From the NCBI RefSeq assembly GCF_004138135.1, contig NZ_RYFD01000011.1:1-64000 (forward strand): 64,000 nt of DNA. The letters run 5' to 3'. This DNA is from Candidatus Oscillochloris fontis. Lineage in GTDB: Bacteria; Chloroflexota; Chloroflexia; Chloroflexales; Chloroflexaceae. The notes beneath the pieces were generated by a model that was not told the origin of the DNA, did not search any database, and worked only from the letters and a program-made list of their open reading frames with translations. Positions 127 through 7,584 of this stretch are shown one piece after another (position 1 is the stretch's first letter; the number at the start of each line of letters is the position of its first letter). A program made the translations under genes and the position numbers.

Positions 127-3100
127 CTACCCCCCCACCAACTCCCACCACGCCTGGCGCAGCGCCACGGGCCACGAGGTGATCGCCGGGGGCGGCGTGC
201 CGTCGCCGGTTACCCCTAGCCAGACCAGGGTCTGGATGGCGAGGCGGCGTAGGGTGGCAACCATGGGCACCTCGGCGCTGATGGGGGTTTCGATCATGTG
301 GCGGGCGGCCTGTTCGAGTTGGCTGCGCAGGGCGTCGTCTTGTGGGCCAGGGTTGCTCACGGCGCGTGCCAGCGCCATCTGGGCGAGGCTGGCCACCAAG
401 GGGATGCGCGGTTTCTGGCTGCGCTCGGCGAGCCAGGTGCGTAGGGCGGGGCGGTGTCCGGCGCAGGCTCCGACGATGTTGAGCATGAGGATCTCGGTGC
501 GCAGATCGAGATCGGCTTGGGCGAGCAGGGCCGGTTCGAGCAGATCGGCGAGGCGCTCGTCGGCCTCTAGGATGAGCGCGTCGGCGATGGCCGCCTGGGT
601 GGCCTGCCACTCCTTCTTGGCCCCTTCCCCCTCGCCGTGGAGCAGCAGATCGAGCAGGCGCTCCTGCACTCCCGGTTGGTCGCTCATGTCGCTCAGGGCG
701 AAGGCCGCCAAGGCGCGTTCATCGCTCTGGTAGTCGGGGGCGGTGAGGGCGGTGACGAGCGCTTCGTGCTGGGTGCGTCGCCACGCTTGCAGCAGACTTG
801 TGAAGTGGCCGTTCTCCTCGCTACTCCCCGGCATGTCGCGTAGCGCCCGCGCCGCAGCGGCGCGCACCAGGGGGCGATCATACTGCCATGCATCATCCAC
901 GAGCAGGACGCGCTCCGCCAGTTGCCTCCGCAGGGCGCTGCGTACCTGCGGGTAGGCAAGTTGCCCCAACGCCTCAGCCAGCATCGCCCGCAGCGCCGCG
1001 CTGGGTTCAAAACGCGGATCGAGTTGGATGAGCAGCCGATCAATCAGGCTGTTCAGGTGGCGCTCTTCAGCGGCGCTGGGACGCCGCACCAGCAGGCTCG
1101 AACTTTGCCGCTGCGCCTGGAAGAAGGCTCCGATACAGCGGGCGGCCACGACTGCTTGTGCGCCACTCAATTCTTGGGCGATGGCCGTCCAGATGGGCGT
1201 GAGCAGATCGAGGCGCTCGCTGCGCTGGGCCAACCCGATCAATACCGGGTTCCACCAGTCCATCCGTTGCGGCAACCCGGCCTGCACCATGATCTCGGTC
1301 AACTGGGTGGCCAGATCGGCCCGTTCTTGCAGCGCCAAGGCAGCGGCGTAGCTCTGAAGGGCCAGGTGGGGCATCTGCACCAGCGCCCCCCCGATTTCAA
1401 CCAGCGCTCCGGCTTGACACAGTGCGGTGTAGAGATCCGCCTCCGGCTCATACTCGCGCAAGAGCGCACGGGCCACAGTGATCGTCATACTGCTACGCAG
1501 ACTGCTATGCAGTGCCCAGGCCAGCGCGAGCATTCCCGCCCGCGCCCCCGCACGAGTGACACCGGCACTGGCTGCCCGTTCCACCAACCGATCAAGCAGT
1601 CCACTCAGCAACTCATCGCGGGTGAGCGTGCGGCTGCGCGTATCCTCAATCAGCCGCTCGGCAATCGCCGTGAGCATCTGCGGGTCATTCGCCAGATCAC
1701 GCAACCCGCCGCGCATAATCGCCCGCAGGTGTGAGAGGGCACGTGGGGGATCGCGGTAGCGCAGGTAGGCGCGGATCTGGCGTTCGCTGAGCGGAGTCAG
1801 GAGTAGCCAGAAGGTGTCGGACTGGCGTAACAGATCGGGGGCTTCGGCCTCTTCCACACTGATAACGATGCGCTGTGCGGGCCAGCGGCGGGCCAGGGTG
1901 GCGAGCAGTTCGGCCAACAGCATGCGGCGGGAAGGTTCGAGGCTCTCCAGGCCATCAATCAGCAGCACAAAACGCGCTGCACCGCCATCCTTGCCCTCGG
2001 CCAGCAGATTCATCAGCGCTACCCCGTGGGCCGGATCGAGCAGACTGGCGGCTTCGATCAAACGATCCTCAATGCGCATTCCGGCTTGCAGGTGGCGATC
2101 CTCGGCTAACGCAAGGTAGACCGCGACCATCTGCGCAGTCGTATCCCGATTCTGCTTCCAGGCCCACTGCTGGAGTAGGAGCGAACGGCTAATCCGCGAA
2201 CCACCACTCACCACCAGCGGCGCGGGGGTGGTCTGGCTCTGCCCCAGGGCGAGCAGATCATCGAGCAAGAGCCGCGCCTCACGCGGGTTGGGCTGTTCAT
2301 CGGGGGTGGTTTTGAGCAGATTGAGGCGCGCTCCGGCGGGTGCGGCGATGGCGGCGGGGCTAATCTGGGGGTCGTTACTGAGCAGACGGGCAAATTCGAG
2401 TTGGGCATTGGGAACAAAGAGCCGCCCATCGCGGCTGCGCAGATAGAGTACCGGGGTCGTCCAGTTGGCGCTCTGCGGGTCAAAGACTTGGCGGCGCGCA
2501 GCGACCATCGCACGGTCAATCATGCCATAGCGCAGCAGATAATCGCACAGGTACTGGGTGAAGGCGCGTGCCAGATCAATCTCGACCAGATCGCGCATGG
2601 CCACGACCGCCGGTACACCGCCATCACGCACGATCTGGATGCCCAGGTTGTCGAGAGCCGGATCGGCGCGCTGGGGGGCCGTATTGCATGAGATGAGCAC
2701 AAAGAGGGCCGGGCGGGTACCATTACGTCGCAGCGCGGCCACCAGATCATTGCCCGATAGCAACTGCCCCGCCCCATCAGCACGTTGCAGCATCAGGCTG
2801 GTACCGAGGCGTGGCGTATAGAGGCCATGGCCATAGAAGATGACCATCTGGTATCCATCCTCCATAGCTCGCAGCAGCGCCTCCGGGGTGGCGGGTTGTA
2901 AGAAACGGTACTCGATCTGGCCAGCGCTACTCACGGCATCCAACACCGCCGCGAGGCGGGATCGTTCCTCCACGAAATCCACCGGGGTCAAGCCGCCCCA
3001 GCGTGTTGCTAGGTCGTTGGGCGCACCAATCGCGATCAGCACCCGCAGCGGCCAGCGTTCCAGTGGAGCCACAAACGGGTTCGGGCTATCCACATAGCGT

Positions 3101-3495
3101 GAGAAGGCCACCAGCGGGTTCGCGGCGAGTGGCACCGGAGCGCCGGTCGCTTCCTGCACATAGAGCATCTCCCAGGGGATCGTCTGAAGTTCGGGGGCGT
3201 TACTCTTGATCCAGAGTTGCAGATGCAGCACACCGCGCCCGCGCTGGGCGGCGATCCAGGCTTGGCGAAAGAGCGCCAAGAGTGAGTCGGGGAAGAGGCG
3301 TTCAAAGAGCAACAGCCCGTAGGCCGCCAAATCACTGCCCCGCGCACGCGGCGCGGGCGGTGGGGGCAGATCAGCGAGAATCAGCCAATCACTTGCGGCA
3401 CTGCCATCGGCCAACGTCAGCCGTAAGGGAAAGGCATGGCGCATGGAGTCACGGTCGGCGATCTCAAGCACCAGGAGATTGAGGGGTTCGGTCAT
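127..3495 (-). CDS. CHAT-domain peptidase fused to a STAND-like NTPase and helical repeats
   Basis: 1122 aa from the ATG at 3495, whose ATGA overlaps the stop of the upstream gene, so translational coupling is likely. Residues about 150-355 form a CHAT (caspase-like) peptidase domain with the expected dyad: His223 in FYGHGLY and Cys270 in VLISCNTA. Residues about 425-700 look like a NACHT/STAND module. A Walker B-like strand (VLLIDGLE, Asp514) is clear, but the P-loop position reads SGGSRISRS and lacks the lysine. The rest is Ala/Leu/Arg-rich helical repeat of HEAT/TPR type. CHAT-STAND proteins are known as regulated proteases in bacterial conflict and cell-death systems; that role here is an inference. 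No signal peptide or membrane segment is seen, so it is probably cytosolic. Confidence 0.85.
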   Translation of the reverse strand: MTEPLNLLVLEIADRDSMRHAFPLRLTLADGSAASDWLILADLPPPPAPRARGSDLAAYGLLLFERLFPDSLLALFRQAWIAAQRGRGVLHLQLWIKSNAPELQTIPWEMLYVQEATGAPVPLAANPLVAFSRYVDSPNPFVAPLERWPLRVLIAIGAPNDLATRWGGLTPVDFVEERSRLAAVLDAVSSAGQIEYRFLQPATPEALLRAMEDGYQMVIFYGHGLYTPRLGTSLMLQRADGAGQLLSGNDLVAALRRNGTRPALFVLISCNTAPQRADPALDNLGIQIVRDGGVPAVVAMRDLVEIDLARAFTQYLCDYLLRYGMIDRAMVAARRQVFDPQSANWTTPVLYLRSRDGRLFVPNAQLEFARLLSNDPQISPAAIAAPAGARLNLLKTTPDEQPNPREARLLLDDLLALGQSQTTPAPLVVSGGSRISRSLLLQQWAWKQNRDTTAQMVAVYLALAEDRHLQAGMRIEDRLIEAASLLDPAHGVALMNLLAEGKDGGAARFVLLIDGLESLEPSRRMLLAELLATLARRWPAQRIVISVEEAEAPDLLRQSDTFWLLLTPLSERQIRAYLRYRDPPRALSHLRAIMRGGLRDLANDPQMLTAIAERLIEDTRSRTLTRDELLSGLLDRLVERAASAGVTRAGARAGMLALAWALHSSLRSSMTITVARALLREYEPEADLYTALCQAGALVEIGGALVQMPHLALQSYAAALALQERADLATQLTEIMVQAGLPQRMDWWNPVLIGLAQRSERLDLLTPIWTAIAQELSGAQAVVAARCIGAFFQAQRQSSSLLVRRPSAAEERHLNSLIDRLLIQLDPRFEPSAALRAMLAEALGQLAYPQVRSALRRQLAERVLLVDDAWQYDRPLVRAAAARALRDMPGSSEENGHFTSLLQAWRRTQHEALVTALTAPDYQSDERALAAFALSDMSDQPGVQERLLDLLLHGEGEGAKKEWQATQAAIADALILEADERLADLLEPALLAQADLDLRTEILMLNIVGACAGHRPALRTWLAERSQKPRIPLVASLAQMALARAVSNPGPQDDALRSQLEQAARHMIETPISAEVPMVATLRRLAIQTLVWLGVTGDGTPPPAITSWPVALRQAWWELVGG

Positions 3496-5876
3496 GATTT
3501 GTCTCCCAACGCCCGTCGCAGATCGAGCGGCCAAGTGGGGGCTTCAGCCGCTATGTCACTAAGATCGGCATCCTGAGCGAGCCAACGTAGCGCTTCGAGG
3601 GCCGTGCGGCGCAGATAGAGCCACCCAGTATCATCGGTGGGGAGATGGTGCAGTGTGAGGGCGGCGAGCGGCGTGGGCAGGTTGAGGTCGCTCCGTAGGC
3701 CGCGCCCAATCGCCAGGGCTGCCGCCAGCAAGGCCGGAGCAAGCGGCAGATCGCGGTGGGTACCCACAATCCACGCCAGCGAACGCAGCGCCTTGGCCTT
3801 GATCAGCGGATCGGGGTGCGCGACCAACTGCTGCACCAGCCAGTCCACACTGACCGGATCGTGCGTCCGTACCCGCCCGGCCAAATAGATCACCTGCCCC
3901 GCAGCCTCAGTACTGAGTTGCGGGCGACGACGAAGGATCGCGGTGATCAGGGTAGCGACGCTGGCAGCATCGGCGAGGGTGAGCGCGTCAGCGGCAGTGC
4001 GCGCCATCGCCGCATAGTCGTTGGGGTTGCCTAGCGGTGCCACGAGGATCATGCGCAACAGGAAGAAGAGATCGTGGGTACTGCTTGCCAGATCGGCCAG
4101 CGCGACCAGCGCCAGCATGCGCGCCTCAATCGGTGTACTCGCATCGTTACTGTATTGGCGCAGGCTGGCCTGATCACCCTCGCCTGCCGCCACCCATGCC
4201 CGCAGCACCGCAATACTGCGCGGCTCTTGGTTAACCCACAGCGCCGCCCCGGCGCTGTGGGTAGGTGGGCGGAAGAGCATCAGGTTGCGCAACCCCAGCG
4301 CTGCATGCAGGCGCACACTCGTATACTCATAATCGAGCCGCTGCCCCACCGCTGGGCGCACGCGCTCAGTAGCGAGACGCAGCAACGCCCGCACACTCGT
4401 CGGGTCGGGCAGGCAACCGAGAGCATCAGCAATCTGAGCGCGGCGGGCCGCCGACGGCTCGCGGGCGGGGTCGGCCCAAGCCGCGCAGGCATCAAGCAGC
4501 GCTCCGCGTGTCGTGGGTGGCAGCGATTCAAACCGGTCGCCGGGCAATGCCTGAAGACAACGCGCCAGCAGGAGCATATAGAGGCCGTTATTACTCTGCA
4601 AGGCAGATCGGCGAATGGGGGCGAGGAGATCGGTGCTACGCTCCAGCATCCCGGCCAGACTGATCAACACCGTCGCCCAGCGCTCGTGGCGATCCGTCAC
4701 CCCACACTGGGGTAGCAGATCGGCCAGGGTGGTCATCTGATCACTACGCTGCATCAACGCTAGGGCCGCGCAGTAGGCACGCTGTCCAGGGCGTTGGAAG
4801 GCGGTGCGCCAACGATCCACATCGTGCAGCATTCCCACCACACAGAGCTGATCATACAACTCTTCAAGGCTATAACTGCGCTCGCCACGTACCGCATTGA
4901 GCAACTGAAACGCCCGTTGTAGATCGAGCGCCTCATCGGGCTGCCAACTCATCTCCCAGGCTAGTGCGATCAGGCTCTGGCGGGCGACATCGCCGCGTTT
5001 GAGGTGGGTGGGCAGCGCGGAAATCTGAGCCTCCAGGCCATCCTGCAAAAGCTGATTACGGCTCAAACCCTCGGCATAACGCCCCTCCAAGCGGCGCAAC
5101 ATATCGGCGAGGAGCGGCGGCAGCGCAGCCAGATCGAGCAGGTGCGTCTCAAGGATCTGGGCAAAGCGCGTATTGGCCTGAGCCAGACTGCCCCGCCGCT
5201 GGCGTAGGTAGGCCAGCACCTCGCGCCCACTGAGGTACTGGAGCAAAAAGCGCTGCGCCAAGCCCTCTAAGTTAGCGGGCATAGCCTCACGGCGGCAACT
5301 GAGGATAAAACGTTGCGCTGTCAAACGACGATCTAGCACCAACTGGCGCAGTTCACGGCTCAGATCGGGACGCAGTTCCAACTGCACCGCCTCCAAGCCA
5401 TCCAGAATGATCACCAACCGAGTGGGGGAGGGGGCTGTGCGCACCAAGATCTCCGCCACCTCCTCGGCAAACTCGGGCACATAGCCCCCCGCCGCCTCAG
5501 CAATCGTCGCCACTAAACGGCGCACCCCACCGGGTTGAGTTGCATAACGCGCCAGATCAACCAAGATCGGCACCGTCTGAGCAGGTTGATCGGCCAACTG
5601 CCACGCCAAGCGGCGCAGCGCACTCGTCTGGCCAATGAAGGCCGGGCCAAGCACCGCCACTAAGCGCTGCTCTGCCTGATTCAGCGCCGCACTCAGCGCC
5701 GCCACCACCTCCACATCGGGTGGTGCAGCGTCAATCTGATCCAACACGGCATCCCATGCCAGCCCCGGTGCCAACCGCAGCGCTCGCAACGGGACATAGT
5801 CGCTCGTGCCCCAACGGGCAAACGCGGGATCAGCACGGAGGGCGTGGCAGTGGCGCAACGCGAGATCTGTGGGCAT
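3492..5876 (-). CDS. STAND/NACHT-like NTPase with helical repeats, partner of the CHAT protein
   Basis: 794 aa. Residues 77-85 read GPAFIGQTS, a P-loop in which the catalytic lysine position is Gln83. A Walker B strand follows (RLVIILDGLE, Asp159). C-terminal to this are long Ala/Leu/Arg-rich helical repeats resembling HEAT or Armadillo arrays. It precedes the CHAT gene with a 4-base ATGA overlap, so the two are one transcription unit. It shares the helical style and the defective P-loop with the NTPase region of the CHAT protein, which suggests a paralogous pair. A role as sensor or scaffold for the peptidase is an inference. No peptidase motif is visible in it. Confidence 0.75.
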   Translation of the reverse strand: MPTDLALRHCHALRADPAFARWGTSDYVPLRALRLAPGLAWDAVLDQIDAAPPDVEVVAALSAALNQAEQRLVAVLGPAFIGQTSALRRLAWQLADQPAQTVPILVDLARYATQPGGVRRLVATIAEAAGGYVPEFAEEVAEILVRTAPSPTRLVIILDGLEAVQLELRPDLSRELRQLVLDRRLTAQRFILSCRREAMPANLEGLAQRFLLQYLSGREVLAYLRQRRGSLAQANTRFAQILETHLLDLAALPPLLADMLRRLEGRYAEGLSRNQLLQDGLEAQISALPTHLKRGDVARQSLIALAWEMSWQPDEALDLQRAFQLLNAVRGERSYSLEELYDQLCVVGMLHDVDRWRTAFQRPGQRAYCAALALMQRSDQMTTLADLLPQCGVTDRHERWATVLISLAGMLERSTDLLAPIRRSALQSNNGLYMLLLARCLQALPGDRFESLPPTTRGALLDACAAWADPAREPSAARRAQIADALGCLPDPTSVRALLRLATERVRPAVGQRLDYEYTSVRLHAALGLRNLMLFRPPTHSAGAALWVNQEPRSIAVLRAWVAAGEGDQASLRQYSNDASTPIEARMLALVALADLASSTHDLFFLLRMILVAPLGNPNDYAAMARTAADALTLADAASVATLITAILRRRPQLSTEAAGQVIYLAGRVRTHDPVSVDWLVQQLVAHPDPLIKAKALRSLAWIVGTHRDLPLAPALLAAALAIGRGLRSDLNLPTPLAALTLHHLPTDDTGWLYLRRTALEALRWLAQDADLSDIAAEAPTWPLDLRRALGDKS

Positions 5877-6004: not shown

Positions 6005-6140
6005 GTAACTGTTCACACTTCTCCTAGCTTCCGGTTTTTGACGCAAAGACGCAGAGGCGCAAAGCCTGCAATAAAACCTTTGCGTCCTTGCGCCTTTGCG
6101 TCAATACGAGATTTCTTTTACCCCAAGTGTGAATAGTTAC
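6005..6140. mobile_element. 136-bp IS66-like MITE, copy 1, with 8-bp target duplication
   Basis: Begins GTAACTGTTCACACTT and ends AAGTGTGAATAGTTAC (one mismatch between arms). The inner part is a long imperfect hairpin of TTGACGCAAAG-type sequence. Directly repeated GCCCGAAT flanks it (5997-6004 and 6141-6148), which is a clean target site duplication. It encodes no protein. The rest of 5877-6437 holds the upstream region of the STAND gene, a possible gene remnant and a short palindrome. Confidence 0.85.
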
Positions 6141-6227
6141 GCCCGAATGGCATTTTGCGCTCCGTGAAAGACGATGATGAGTGGCAGGGGGGAGGCACTG
6201 ACGGCGGGTGGGACGTGCAGAATATAG

Positions 6228-7200: not shown

Positions 7201-7584
7201 TTCGCATCCCGGTTTTGACGCCAAGACGCCAAGGCGCAAAGCGTTCAATAAACCCTTTGCGCTTTGGCGTCAAGAAGAACATTCTGCCTTCTCCTGGCAT
7301 CCCAGTTTTGACGCCAAGACGCAGAGGCGCAAAGCGTTCAATAAACCCTTTGCGTCTTTGCGCCTTTGCGTCAAGAAGAACATTTTGTTTCCTCCAACCC
7401 TTTGCGTCTTTGCGCCTTTGCGTCAACACGAGATTTCTTTTACCCCAAGGGTGAATAGTTACCTGGCATCCCAGATTTTGACGCTAAGACGCAGAGGCGC
7501 AAAGCGTTCAATAAACCCTTTGCGTCTTTGCGCCTTTGCGTCAAGAAGAACATTTTGTTTCCTCCAACCCTTTGCGTCTTTGCG
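7201..7584. repeat. compound array of the GACGCAAAG hairpin repeat
   Basis: Several tandem, partly duplicated copies of the inner hairpin of the 136-bp element. One terminal arm is still visible (GTGAATAGTTAC ending at 7462). A segment beginning CTGGCATCCCAG is repeated at about 7294 and 7463. No gene is present; open frames here are translations of the palindromes. The array directly abuts the ends of the flanking genes, and its right-hand TTGACGC supplies the ileS stop codon. Confidence 0.8.

Follow-up and report, generated by a model that had tools for sequence, protein, structure and literature searches.

Loss of the P-loop lysine in a family of CHAT–NACHT–HEAT proteins of the Chloroflexi

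At the start of a contig of Candidatus Oscillochloris fontis (NZ_RYFD01000011.1), whose first 64,000 nucleotides were analysed as one stretch (the window), a gene for a CHAT peptidase carrying an NTPase-like module (protein A) lies beside a gene for a second such module (protein B), and the P-loops of both modules are devoid of the lysine. A sequence-only reading of this locus proposed that the two modules may bind but not hydrolyse nucleotide, which would make the pair an unusual switch. The question is therefore whether the missing lysine is a genuine and maintained property of these proteins, and whether a protease could be controlled by such a body.

The two proteins of the locus

Both open reading frames are found on the minus strand, at 127..3534 and 3492..5876 (Table 1). 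The start of protein A is most likely the ATG at 3495, which gives 1122 amino acids and overlaps the stop codon of B as ATGA; a TTG at 3534, upstream of this ATG, is an alternative start. The window begins at base 1 of its contig, and the contig ends 126 bases past A, leaving one flank unseen. The CHAT domain of A is matched by the Pfam family PF12770 at 1.7e-23 (83.9 bits against a cut-off of 24). The NACHT family PF05729 matches B with 27.3 bits, barely above its cut-off of 26.7, and gives no match to A in the Pfam scan, so that A is counted as a NACHT protein only through its fold and its homology to B and to the C-type protein described below. B is a paralogue of residues 420-1115 of A (31% identity, E 3.9e-28), so that the partner repeats the regulatory body of A but has no protease; the Pfam scan found no effector domain in B, and no CHAT, and at E up to 10 it found no AlbA or SIR2 domain in either protein. 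On the minus strand, a promoter scan returned no hit ahead of B, and the PADLOC models of known anti-phage systems gave only weak partial matches (E 0.0077 or worse). A frameshift or sequencing artefact was rejected as an explanation for A and B, since the orthologues from two further assemblies are in agreement with them and dN/dS is low. The DNA between B and ileS contains an ORF of 264 amino acids surrounded by a repeat of ~109 nt, present in four copies that are 65-100% alike (window positions 6036-6144, 7213-7321, 7306-7414, and 7476-7584).

Table 1. Positions of the two genes and of their motifs in the window; the domain borders of protein A are our own reading of Pfam, the AlphaFold model, and fold matches.
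Feature	Position	Strand	Remarks
Protein A	127..3495	-	1122 aa; CHAT peptidase (~residues 4-360), NACHT-WHD with degenerate P-loop (~400-730), HEAT-like repeats (~730-1120)
Protein B	3492..5876	-	794 aa; NACHT-WHD module and HEAT-like repeats
CHAT catalytic His223 to Cys270 of A	2686..2829	-	Motif positions; invariant in alignment
Degenerate P-loop SGGSRISRS of A (residues 430-438)	2182..2208	-	Motif position; Lys to Arg
P-loop GPAFIGQTS of B (residues 77-85)	5622..5648	-	Motif position; Lys to Gln

The catalytic residues of the CHAT domain, His223 and Cys270 (numbered from the ATG at 3495), were described as intact in the sequence-only reading, and they are indeed invariant in the 21 rows of alignment A3. 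Since this pair is both intact and conserved, the CHAT effector is probably an active protease. The AlphaFold model of A is only moderate (mean pLDDT 74.0, pTM 0.52, and a pLDDT of ~70 at the P-loop). Its CHAT part resembles Csx29 (7y9x_B; Z 21.6 over 294 residues, rmsd 3.5), SAVED-CHAT (8tl0_D; Z 21.1, 20% identity over 195 residues), and separase (Z 19.1), and its residues ~398-890 resemble NLR proteins, with a best Z of 18.4 and an rmsd of 6.3. The helix of the P-loop starts at residue 434 in this model, three residues ahead of the Arg that replaces the Lys, which is a hint, and no more, of a collapsed P-loop. Residues 3-352 of the model also match DdvA, an entry titled transmembrane anti-sigma factor (8rot_A; Z 19.1, 20% identity), on which a literature search returned no paper. 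The model of B has a pLDDT of 85.5 and a pTM of 0.85, and it shows a strand at residues 72-76 and a helix that begins at the Gln, residue 83. It matches NLRC4 over residues 1-467 (8fw2_A; Z 19.7 over 405 residues, rmsd 7.4) and NOD2 over residues 1-486 (Z 18.4, rmsd 8.0). Structure prediction, which had been proposed as a check, thus gives an NLR fold for B and an NLR-like region for A, and by its model B keeps the NBD-HD1-WHD fold of NACHT/STAND proteins. Sequence searches for a solved structure returned none except alpha-Rep designs.

A wider family and its missing lysine

A third member of the family, a CHAT–NACHT–HEAT frame of 1236 amino acids, is encoded elsewhere in the window's genome (G000:C51) and belongs to what is the common member of the family that includes A and B, hereafter the C-type. 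It is present, whole or fragmentary, in 37 of the 41 genomes of one family-level group made up of Chloroflexus, Oscillochloris, and their kin. The NCBI taxonomy assigns these two genera to different families of Chloroflexineae (Chloroflexaceae for Chloroflexus, Oscillochloridaceae for Oscillochloris), and the group is accordingly wider than the NCBI Chloroflexaceae. Three genomes (G012, G021, and G026) hold only fragments in which the P-loop is not readable, and a fourth (G002) is counted through an N-terminal fragment and is absent from both the C-type tree and the tree of residue changes. When 400 genomes of the phylum were searched, scoring no more than two candidates in each, the highest score beyond the group was 72.8 bits, whereas even the shortest of the family fragments listed scored 188 bits. 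A contig scan with one HEAT-derived pattern yielded 25 loci, all titled as Chloroflexi or as genera within it, such as Chloroflexus, Oscillochloris, Ca. Chloroploca, and Ca. Viridilinea; L075, L079, and L091 were excluded from alignments A2 and A3 on account of stops or frame breaks, and the fragments L078 and L090 were also excluded from A3. L079 and L091, from the metagenome assemblies G014 and G025, each carry a C-type gene that is interrupted, by either real breaks or assembly errors, so that it spans at least two frames. The PF05729 cut-off was passed by one of four C-type proteins scanned, and the other three fell below it. Fourteen matches to A are found in the window's genome. Besides A, B, and the C-type protein, they comprise eleven frames of 432-1620 amino acids whose similarity is confined to the CHAT part of A (for example, G000:C46:74085-74981), one of which lies on the window's contig.

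The C-type gene is single-copy in most genomes of its group, and each of the seven genera represented by at least two rows is kept together in the C-type tree. The tree places A at its base (86/78) and B near G006/G007 (82/83), but these are long-branch placements and are not relied on. In five genomes of three genera (G000, G003, G005, G033, and G017), the gene adjoins a block that contains rho, AIM24, and a solute-binding protein; BLAST comparison of its surroundings, of which 9 of 18 were listed, gave no neighbour common to all those listed that would mark a conserved operon or a substrate. At the one locus scanned, in the window's genome, the gene sits among housekeeping genes. The C-type thus looks like a vertically inherited single gene rather than a component of a defence island.

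The distribution of A and B is much narrower. Orthologues of both were found in the same three of the 41 genomes, the window's own (G000), G003, and G005, with identities of 57-74% for A and 63-64% for B, so that the suggested check of their co-occurrence came out in favour of the pair. Its adjacency is another matter: A and B are neighbours in the window only and lie on different contigs in both sister species, where no partner copy is present within the 17-19 kb examined around either gene (B in G005 is 4.6 kb from a contig end). The view of the adjacent pair as a conserved unit must hence be given up, and the arrangement in the window is not demonstrably ancestral. In a tree of ileS, a gene named by NCBIfam, G002 and G004 form the sister group of G003 and G005, and G000 branches outside these four; G001 gave no ileS match at the cut-off, and its C-type protein groups with that of G004 in the C-type tree. 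The carriers of A and B do not form a clade on this tree and their pattern needs two changes, which would correspond to a joint gain and a joint loss or to two joint gains. Shuffled labels on the same tree of few genomes gave a count as low in 111 of 500 cases, and the shared presence pattern is modest evidence that the two proteins work together.

The absence of the lysine, correctly noted for A and B, was understated, because it extends to the whole family. None of the 40 distinct members whose P-loop is readable has Lys at this column, the residue being Gln (35), Arg (3), His (1), or Leu (1) instead; the 34 C-type proteins contribute 32 Gln, one His, and one Leu, the three B proteins Gln, and the three A proteins Arg. 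The supposed change from Lys to Gln therefore applies to B and not to A, in which Lys has become Arg. The Walker A signature GK[ST] of NACHT/STAND proteins, the retention of which in homologues would have spoken against the idea, occurs in none of the 40. A true P-loop elsewhere in A or B was likewise sought, and a whole-protein pattern scan for [GA]xxxx[GS]K[ST] found none; among 52 family ORFs, only the G011 protein has [GA]xxxxGK[ST], at its residue 954 and outside its NACHT module. In a profile alignment, the Gln or Arg of the family shares its column with the Lys of six other NACHT proteins (those aligned at E up to 1e-5, all with GK[ST]), and this correspondence, together with the family-wide extent of the loss, marks it as more than chance. 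The flanks of the C-type P-loop are strictly kept, with the first Gly, the Ser-Gly, and the Thr/Ser each in 34 of 34 proteins. At the upstream P-loop position the residue varies (14 Gln, 13 His, 4 Arg, and 3 Tyr). SGGSRISRS is identical in the three A proteins at about 60% overall identity.

The Gln is encoded by CAG in 19 and CAA in 16 members of the family, including CAG, CAG, and CAA in the three B proteins. On a FastTree phylogeny, at least eight changes between CAA and CAG are needed among the 34 Gln tips, compared to three residue changes over 39 tips, and codon switches under a retained residue imply that the Gln is maintained by selection. The Gln column is 94% conserved in the C-type, and only 47 of the 358 module columns, itself included, are as conserved or more. 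Base composition was considered as a cause of the loss and rejected, since 15 of the 18 PF05729 matches in the same genome have GK[ST] (12 at the motif, and three more, L139, L145, and L149, when the whole ORF was scanned for the pattern); the remaining three are B, the C-type protein, and a match with GTGRST, and A is outside the 18. That GTGRST belongs to an open frame of 2972 amino acids with two NACHT matches (G000:C65:23879-28369; L140 and L147), in which it is a second case of Lys to Arg in the window's genome, beside an intact sister module with GWGKST. A relocated lysine, of the kind known from WNK, was also rejected: no column of the C-type NACHT-WHD part exceeds 21.2% Lys, and the corresponding part of B has a single Lys in 316 residues.

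Other residues of the nucleotide site have changed as well. The six other NACHT proteins read D-G-L-[DN]-E at Walker B and [AC]-R at sensor 1. The Walker B aspartates of A (D514) and B (D159) remain, as was originally stated, and all 33 C-type, all three A, and all three B proteins have this Asp. The fourth position after it is Glu in all six comparison proteins, whereas the C-type has Glu in one and Asp in one of 33 rows, and A and B have neither in any of three each. The sensor-1 Arg is absent from all 33 C-type and all three A proteins and is present in all three B proteins; in the C-type rows of G007, G019, and G029, an Arg follows immediately after this column. The WHD position, which is His in all four GK-bearing NACHT proteins picked up by pattern, is Asn (27), Tyr (4), or Gln (2) in the C-type, Arg in the three B proteins, and His in the three A proteins. 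The Pro of LAxxPxLL is found in 31 of 33 C-type rows. The roles of the catalytic Glu, the sensor-1 Arg, the WHD His, and the HD1 Pro of the adenine pocket are taken here to be those assigned in NLR and AAA+ proteins. In addition, every one of the 33 C-type rows has an acid at the third position beyond the Walker B Asp, and 13 of the 33 have one directly after it (12 Asp and 1 Glu), the latter position being where other P-loop families keep their catalytic acid.

A protease gated without nucleotide turnover?

The reading that we favour, with moderate confidence, is that A and the C-type are CHAT proteases gated by a pseudo-STAND body that does not turn over NTP, and that B is the hetero-partner of A. 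These caspase-like cysteine proteases would be controlled by a NACHT-winged-helix-HEAT body of NLR fold that no longer hydrolyses NTP, the C-type regulator presumably being without most of the residues that read and cleave the gamma-phosphate. A ligand or protein could be recognised by the HEAT array; this recognition would shift or oligomerise the NACHT body, and the shift would free or align the CHAT site without a cycle of nucleotide hydrolysis. No substrate or ligand of A, B, or the C-type was found. In the pockets of the C-type and B, a nucleotide or other phosphate ligand could still sit as a fixed cofactor, as suggested by the near-invariant Gly, the Gly-Gln-[ST] loop, the Walker B Asp, and the adenine-pocket Pro. 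The original proposal of binding without hydrolysis thus fits the C-type and B, which keep both Gly, the [ST], and the Walker B Asp, whereas A, which by its SGGSRISRS motif is more degenerate than B and the C-type, may not bind nucleotide and has probably lost even ligand binding. The effector-less B might serve A as a scaffold, sensor, or brake, but taken alone this partnership is tentative, since it is drawn from three genomes, one reading-frame overlap, and one presence/absence pattern, with the genes unlinked in two of the three.

A challenge to this reading is that a P-loop without Lys can be active if another residue substitutes. The family could then be a non-canonical but real NTP switch that still binds nucleotide and turns it over slowly, an arginine from another position standing in for the lysine; replacement of the P-loop lysine by an upstream residue is reported for phage terminases and suggested for SAMD9, according to PMC5445408. 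The near-invariant glycines, [ST], Walker B Asp, and further acidic residue of the C-type are what such a switch would keep, and eight columns dominated by Lys/Arg/His, in fact by Arg, exceed 85% (for example, profile columns 92, 122, 126, and 235). Weak hydrolysis is conceivable given the acids that accompany the Walker B Asp (three places on in every C-type row, directly after it in 13 of 33), the displaced Arg near sensor 1 in G007, G019, and G029 may matter, B keeps its sensor-1 Arg, and the moderate model of A (pTM 0.52) limits what can be read from its P-loop. However, the lysine has not relocated (at most 21.2% in any C-type column, and one in 316 residues of B), the upstream position of the C-type varies, unlike the conserved upstream residue invoked for SAMD9, and the Glu, the sensor Arg, and the WHD His are lost as well, all of which makes a real switch unlikely.

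Relaxed decay would leave the NACHT modules as functionless, drifting remnants beside a CHAT domain that alone matters, if anything does. The dN/dS values (NG86) among the window's genome, G003, and G005 bear on this idea in both directions. In A, the NACHT part (0.22-0.46) and the HEAT part (0.28-0.38) are more relaxed than the CHAT part (0.14-0.23) in all three comparisons, and the HEAT part is more so than the NACHT part in two of them; A and B are, moreover, missing from 38 of the 41 genomes. Nevertheless, every segment of A, B, and C stays well below 1, at 0.13-0.46, with dS from 0.4 to 1.7 and the larger distances rough. The highly conserved Gln column, the persistence of Gln through at least eight synonymous changes, and the unchanged SGGSRISRS of diverged A proteins also argue against drift, and we give decay very little credence. 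The family could instead be a component of an iSTAND-type ternary conflict system with MoxR and vWA proteins, in which it would sense invaders and act through its peptidase. Inactive STAND modules with N-terminal caspase-like peptidases, among others, are described as enriched in multicellular bacteria (PMC7159879), and iSTAND2 systems are reported from Chloroflexi among others (PMC8195603). The Pfam scan of 20 neighbouring ORFs, taken around A and B in the window, G003, and G005 and around the C-type in G000 only, gave no MoxR or vWA match, five of them being without any family, and both the housekeeping surroundings of the C-type where scanned and its genus-by-genus tree run counter to such a system, which is thus improbable.

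The gated protease without turnover remains our preferred reading, and it can be extended to a vertically inherited 'pseudo-inflammasome', in which an NLR-like body in a fixed Gln-P-loop state controls a CHAT protease, and the derived and mostly unlinked A/B hetero-pair forms a nucleotide-independent switch, each partner with a different remnant of the nucleotide site (the WHD His in A and the sensor-1 Arg in B). We regard this extension as speculative and rather doubtful in its entirety. STAND proteins are commonly described as ATP/ADP switches. A gene present in most genomes of a family-level group, with the lysine and further residues of the nucleotide site replaced and held so, is a natural experiment that asks if a protease can be gated by an NLR body when there is no nucleotide cycle. 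The C-type gene is carried by cultured relatives such as Chloroflexus islandicus and Oscillochloris sp. ZM17-4, and the role of 'pseudo-NLRs', among them SAMD9 and iSTAND, could therefore be tested with a protease read-out.

Relation to known systems

A STAND module without the P-loop lysine has forerunners. In SAMD9/SAMD9L, a STAND-like P-loop shows a family-wide change of Lys to Gly, for which the authors consider NTP binding without hydrolysis (PMC5445408). The likeness lies in a STAND-type P-loop module whose lysine is replaced family-wide with the remaining signature kept, and SAMD9 (9zjs_B) is the top Foldseek row for the model of A by E-value (2.3e-07), at a low TM-score of 0.18 and a whole-length rmsd of 23.6. 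The SAMD9 P-loop is GGT/S, whereas Gln, His, Leu, or Arg is found here, in proteins with a CHAT protease effector and HEAT repeats and without a conserved upstream P-loop residue. The iSTAND and iSTAND2 modules are also inactive STANDs linked to peptidases in multicellular bacteria (PMC7159879, PMC8195603); compared by description and neighbourhood, the present family differs in the lack of MoxR/vWA among the 20 neighbours, in its sharply conserved P-loop skeleton, and in its single-copy common member.

The CHAT domain leads to other relatives. HetF, a CHAT divisome component of a filamentous cyanobacterium (PMC8406250), shares with this family a CHAT domain in a filamentous phototroph, and NCBIfam matched A and one C-type protein to a single family, CellDiv_HetF (2.3e-16 and 2.3e-19). 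The scores are, however, 59.3 and 69.2 bits against an equivalog cut-off of 1200 for NF045509, the match is confined to the CHAT part, and HetF is described with TM and TPR parts (PMC8406250) in place of the NACHT-HEAT body. The closest folds to the CHAT part of A, Csx29/TPR-CHAT (Craspase) and SAVED-CHAT, likewise have CHAT within a larger regulated protein. Going also by the entry titles, the other part of Csx29 is TPR with gRAMP and that of SAVED-CHAT is SAVED, neither of which is a NACHT body.

The NACHT-HD1-WHD body itself is shared with NLRC4, NOD2, NLRP3, and bacterial Avs proteins, to the first two of which the model of B is matched as given above. Avs5 loses immunity when Gly362 or Lys363 of its P-loop is mutated to Ala (PMC12931631); the lysine that is essential there is naturally absent here. 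Bacteria are also known to encode metacaspase–NACHT and NACHT–HEAT–metacaspase proteins, one of them a Trichodesmium protein with HEAT_PBS repeats (PMC3501461); they also join a caspase-like domain to NACHT, with HEAT_PBS in that one protein, but use a metacaspase in place of CHAT and another domain order. More generally, NACHT and CHAT domains are listed among the diversified sensors of multicellular bacteria (PMC10907252). A literature search, with subscription journals mostly outside its coverage, returned no paper recognised as describing a GQT CHAT–NACHT family. Collectively, STAND modules without the P-loop lysine have precedents in SAMD9 and iSTAND, and the Gln-P-loop combined with a CHAT protease is a new variation on them.
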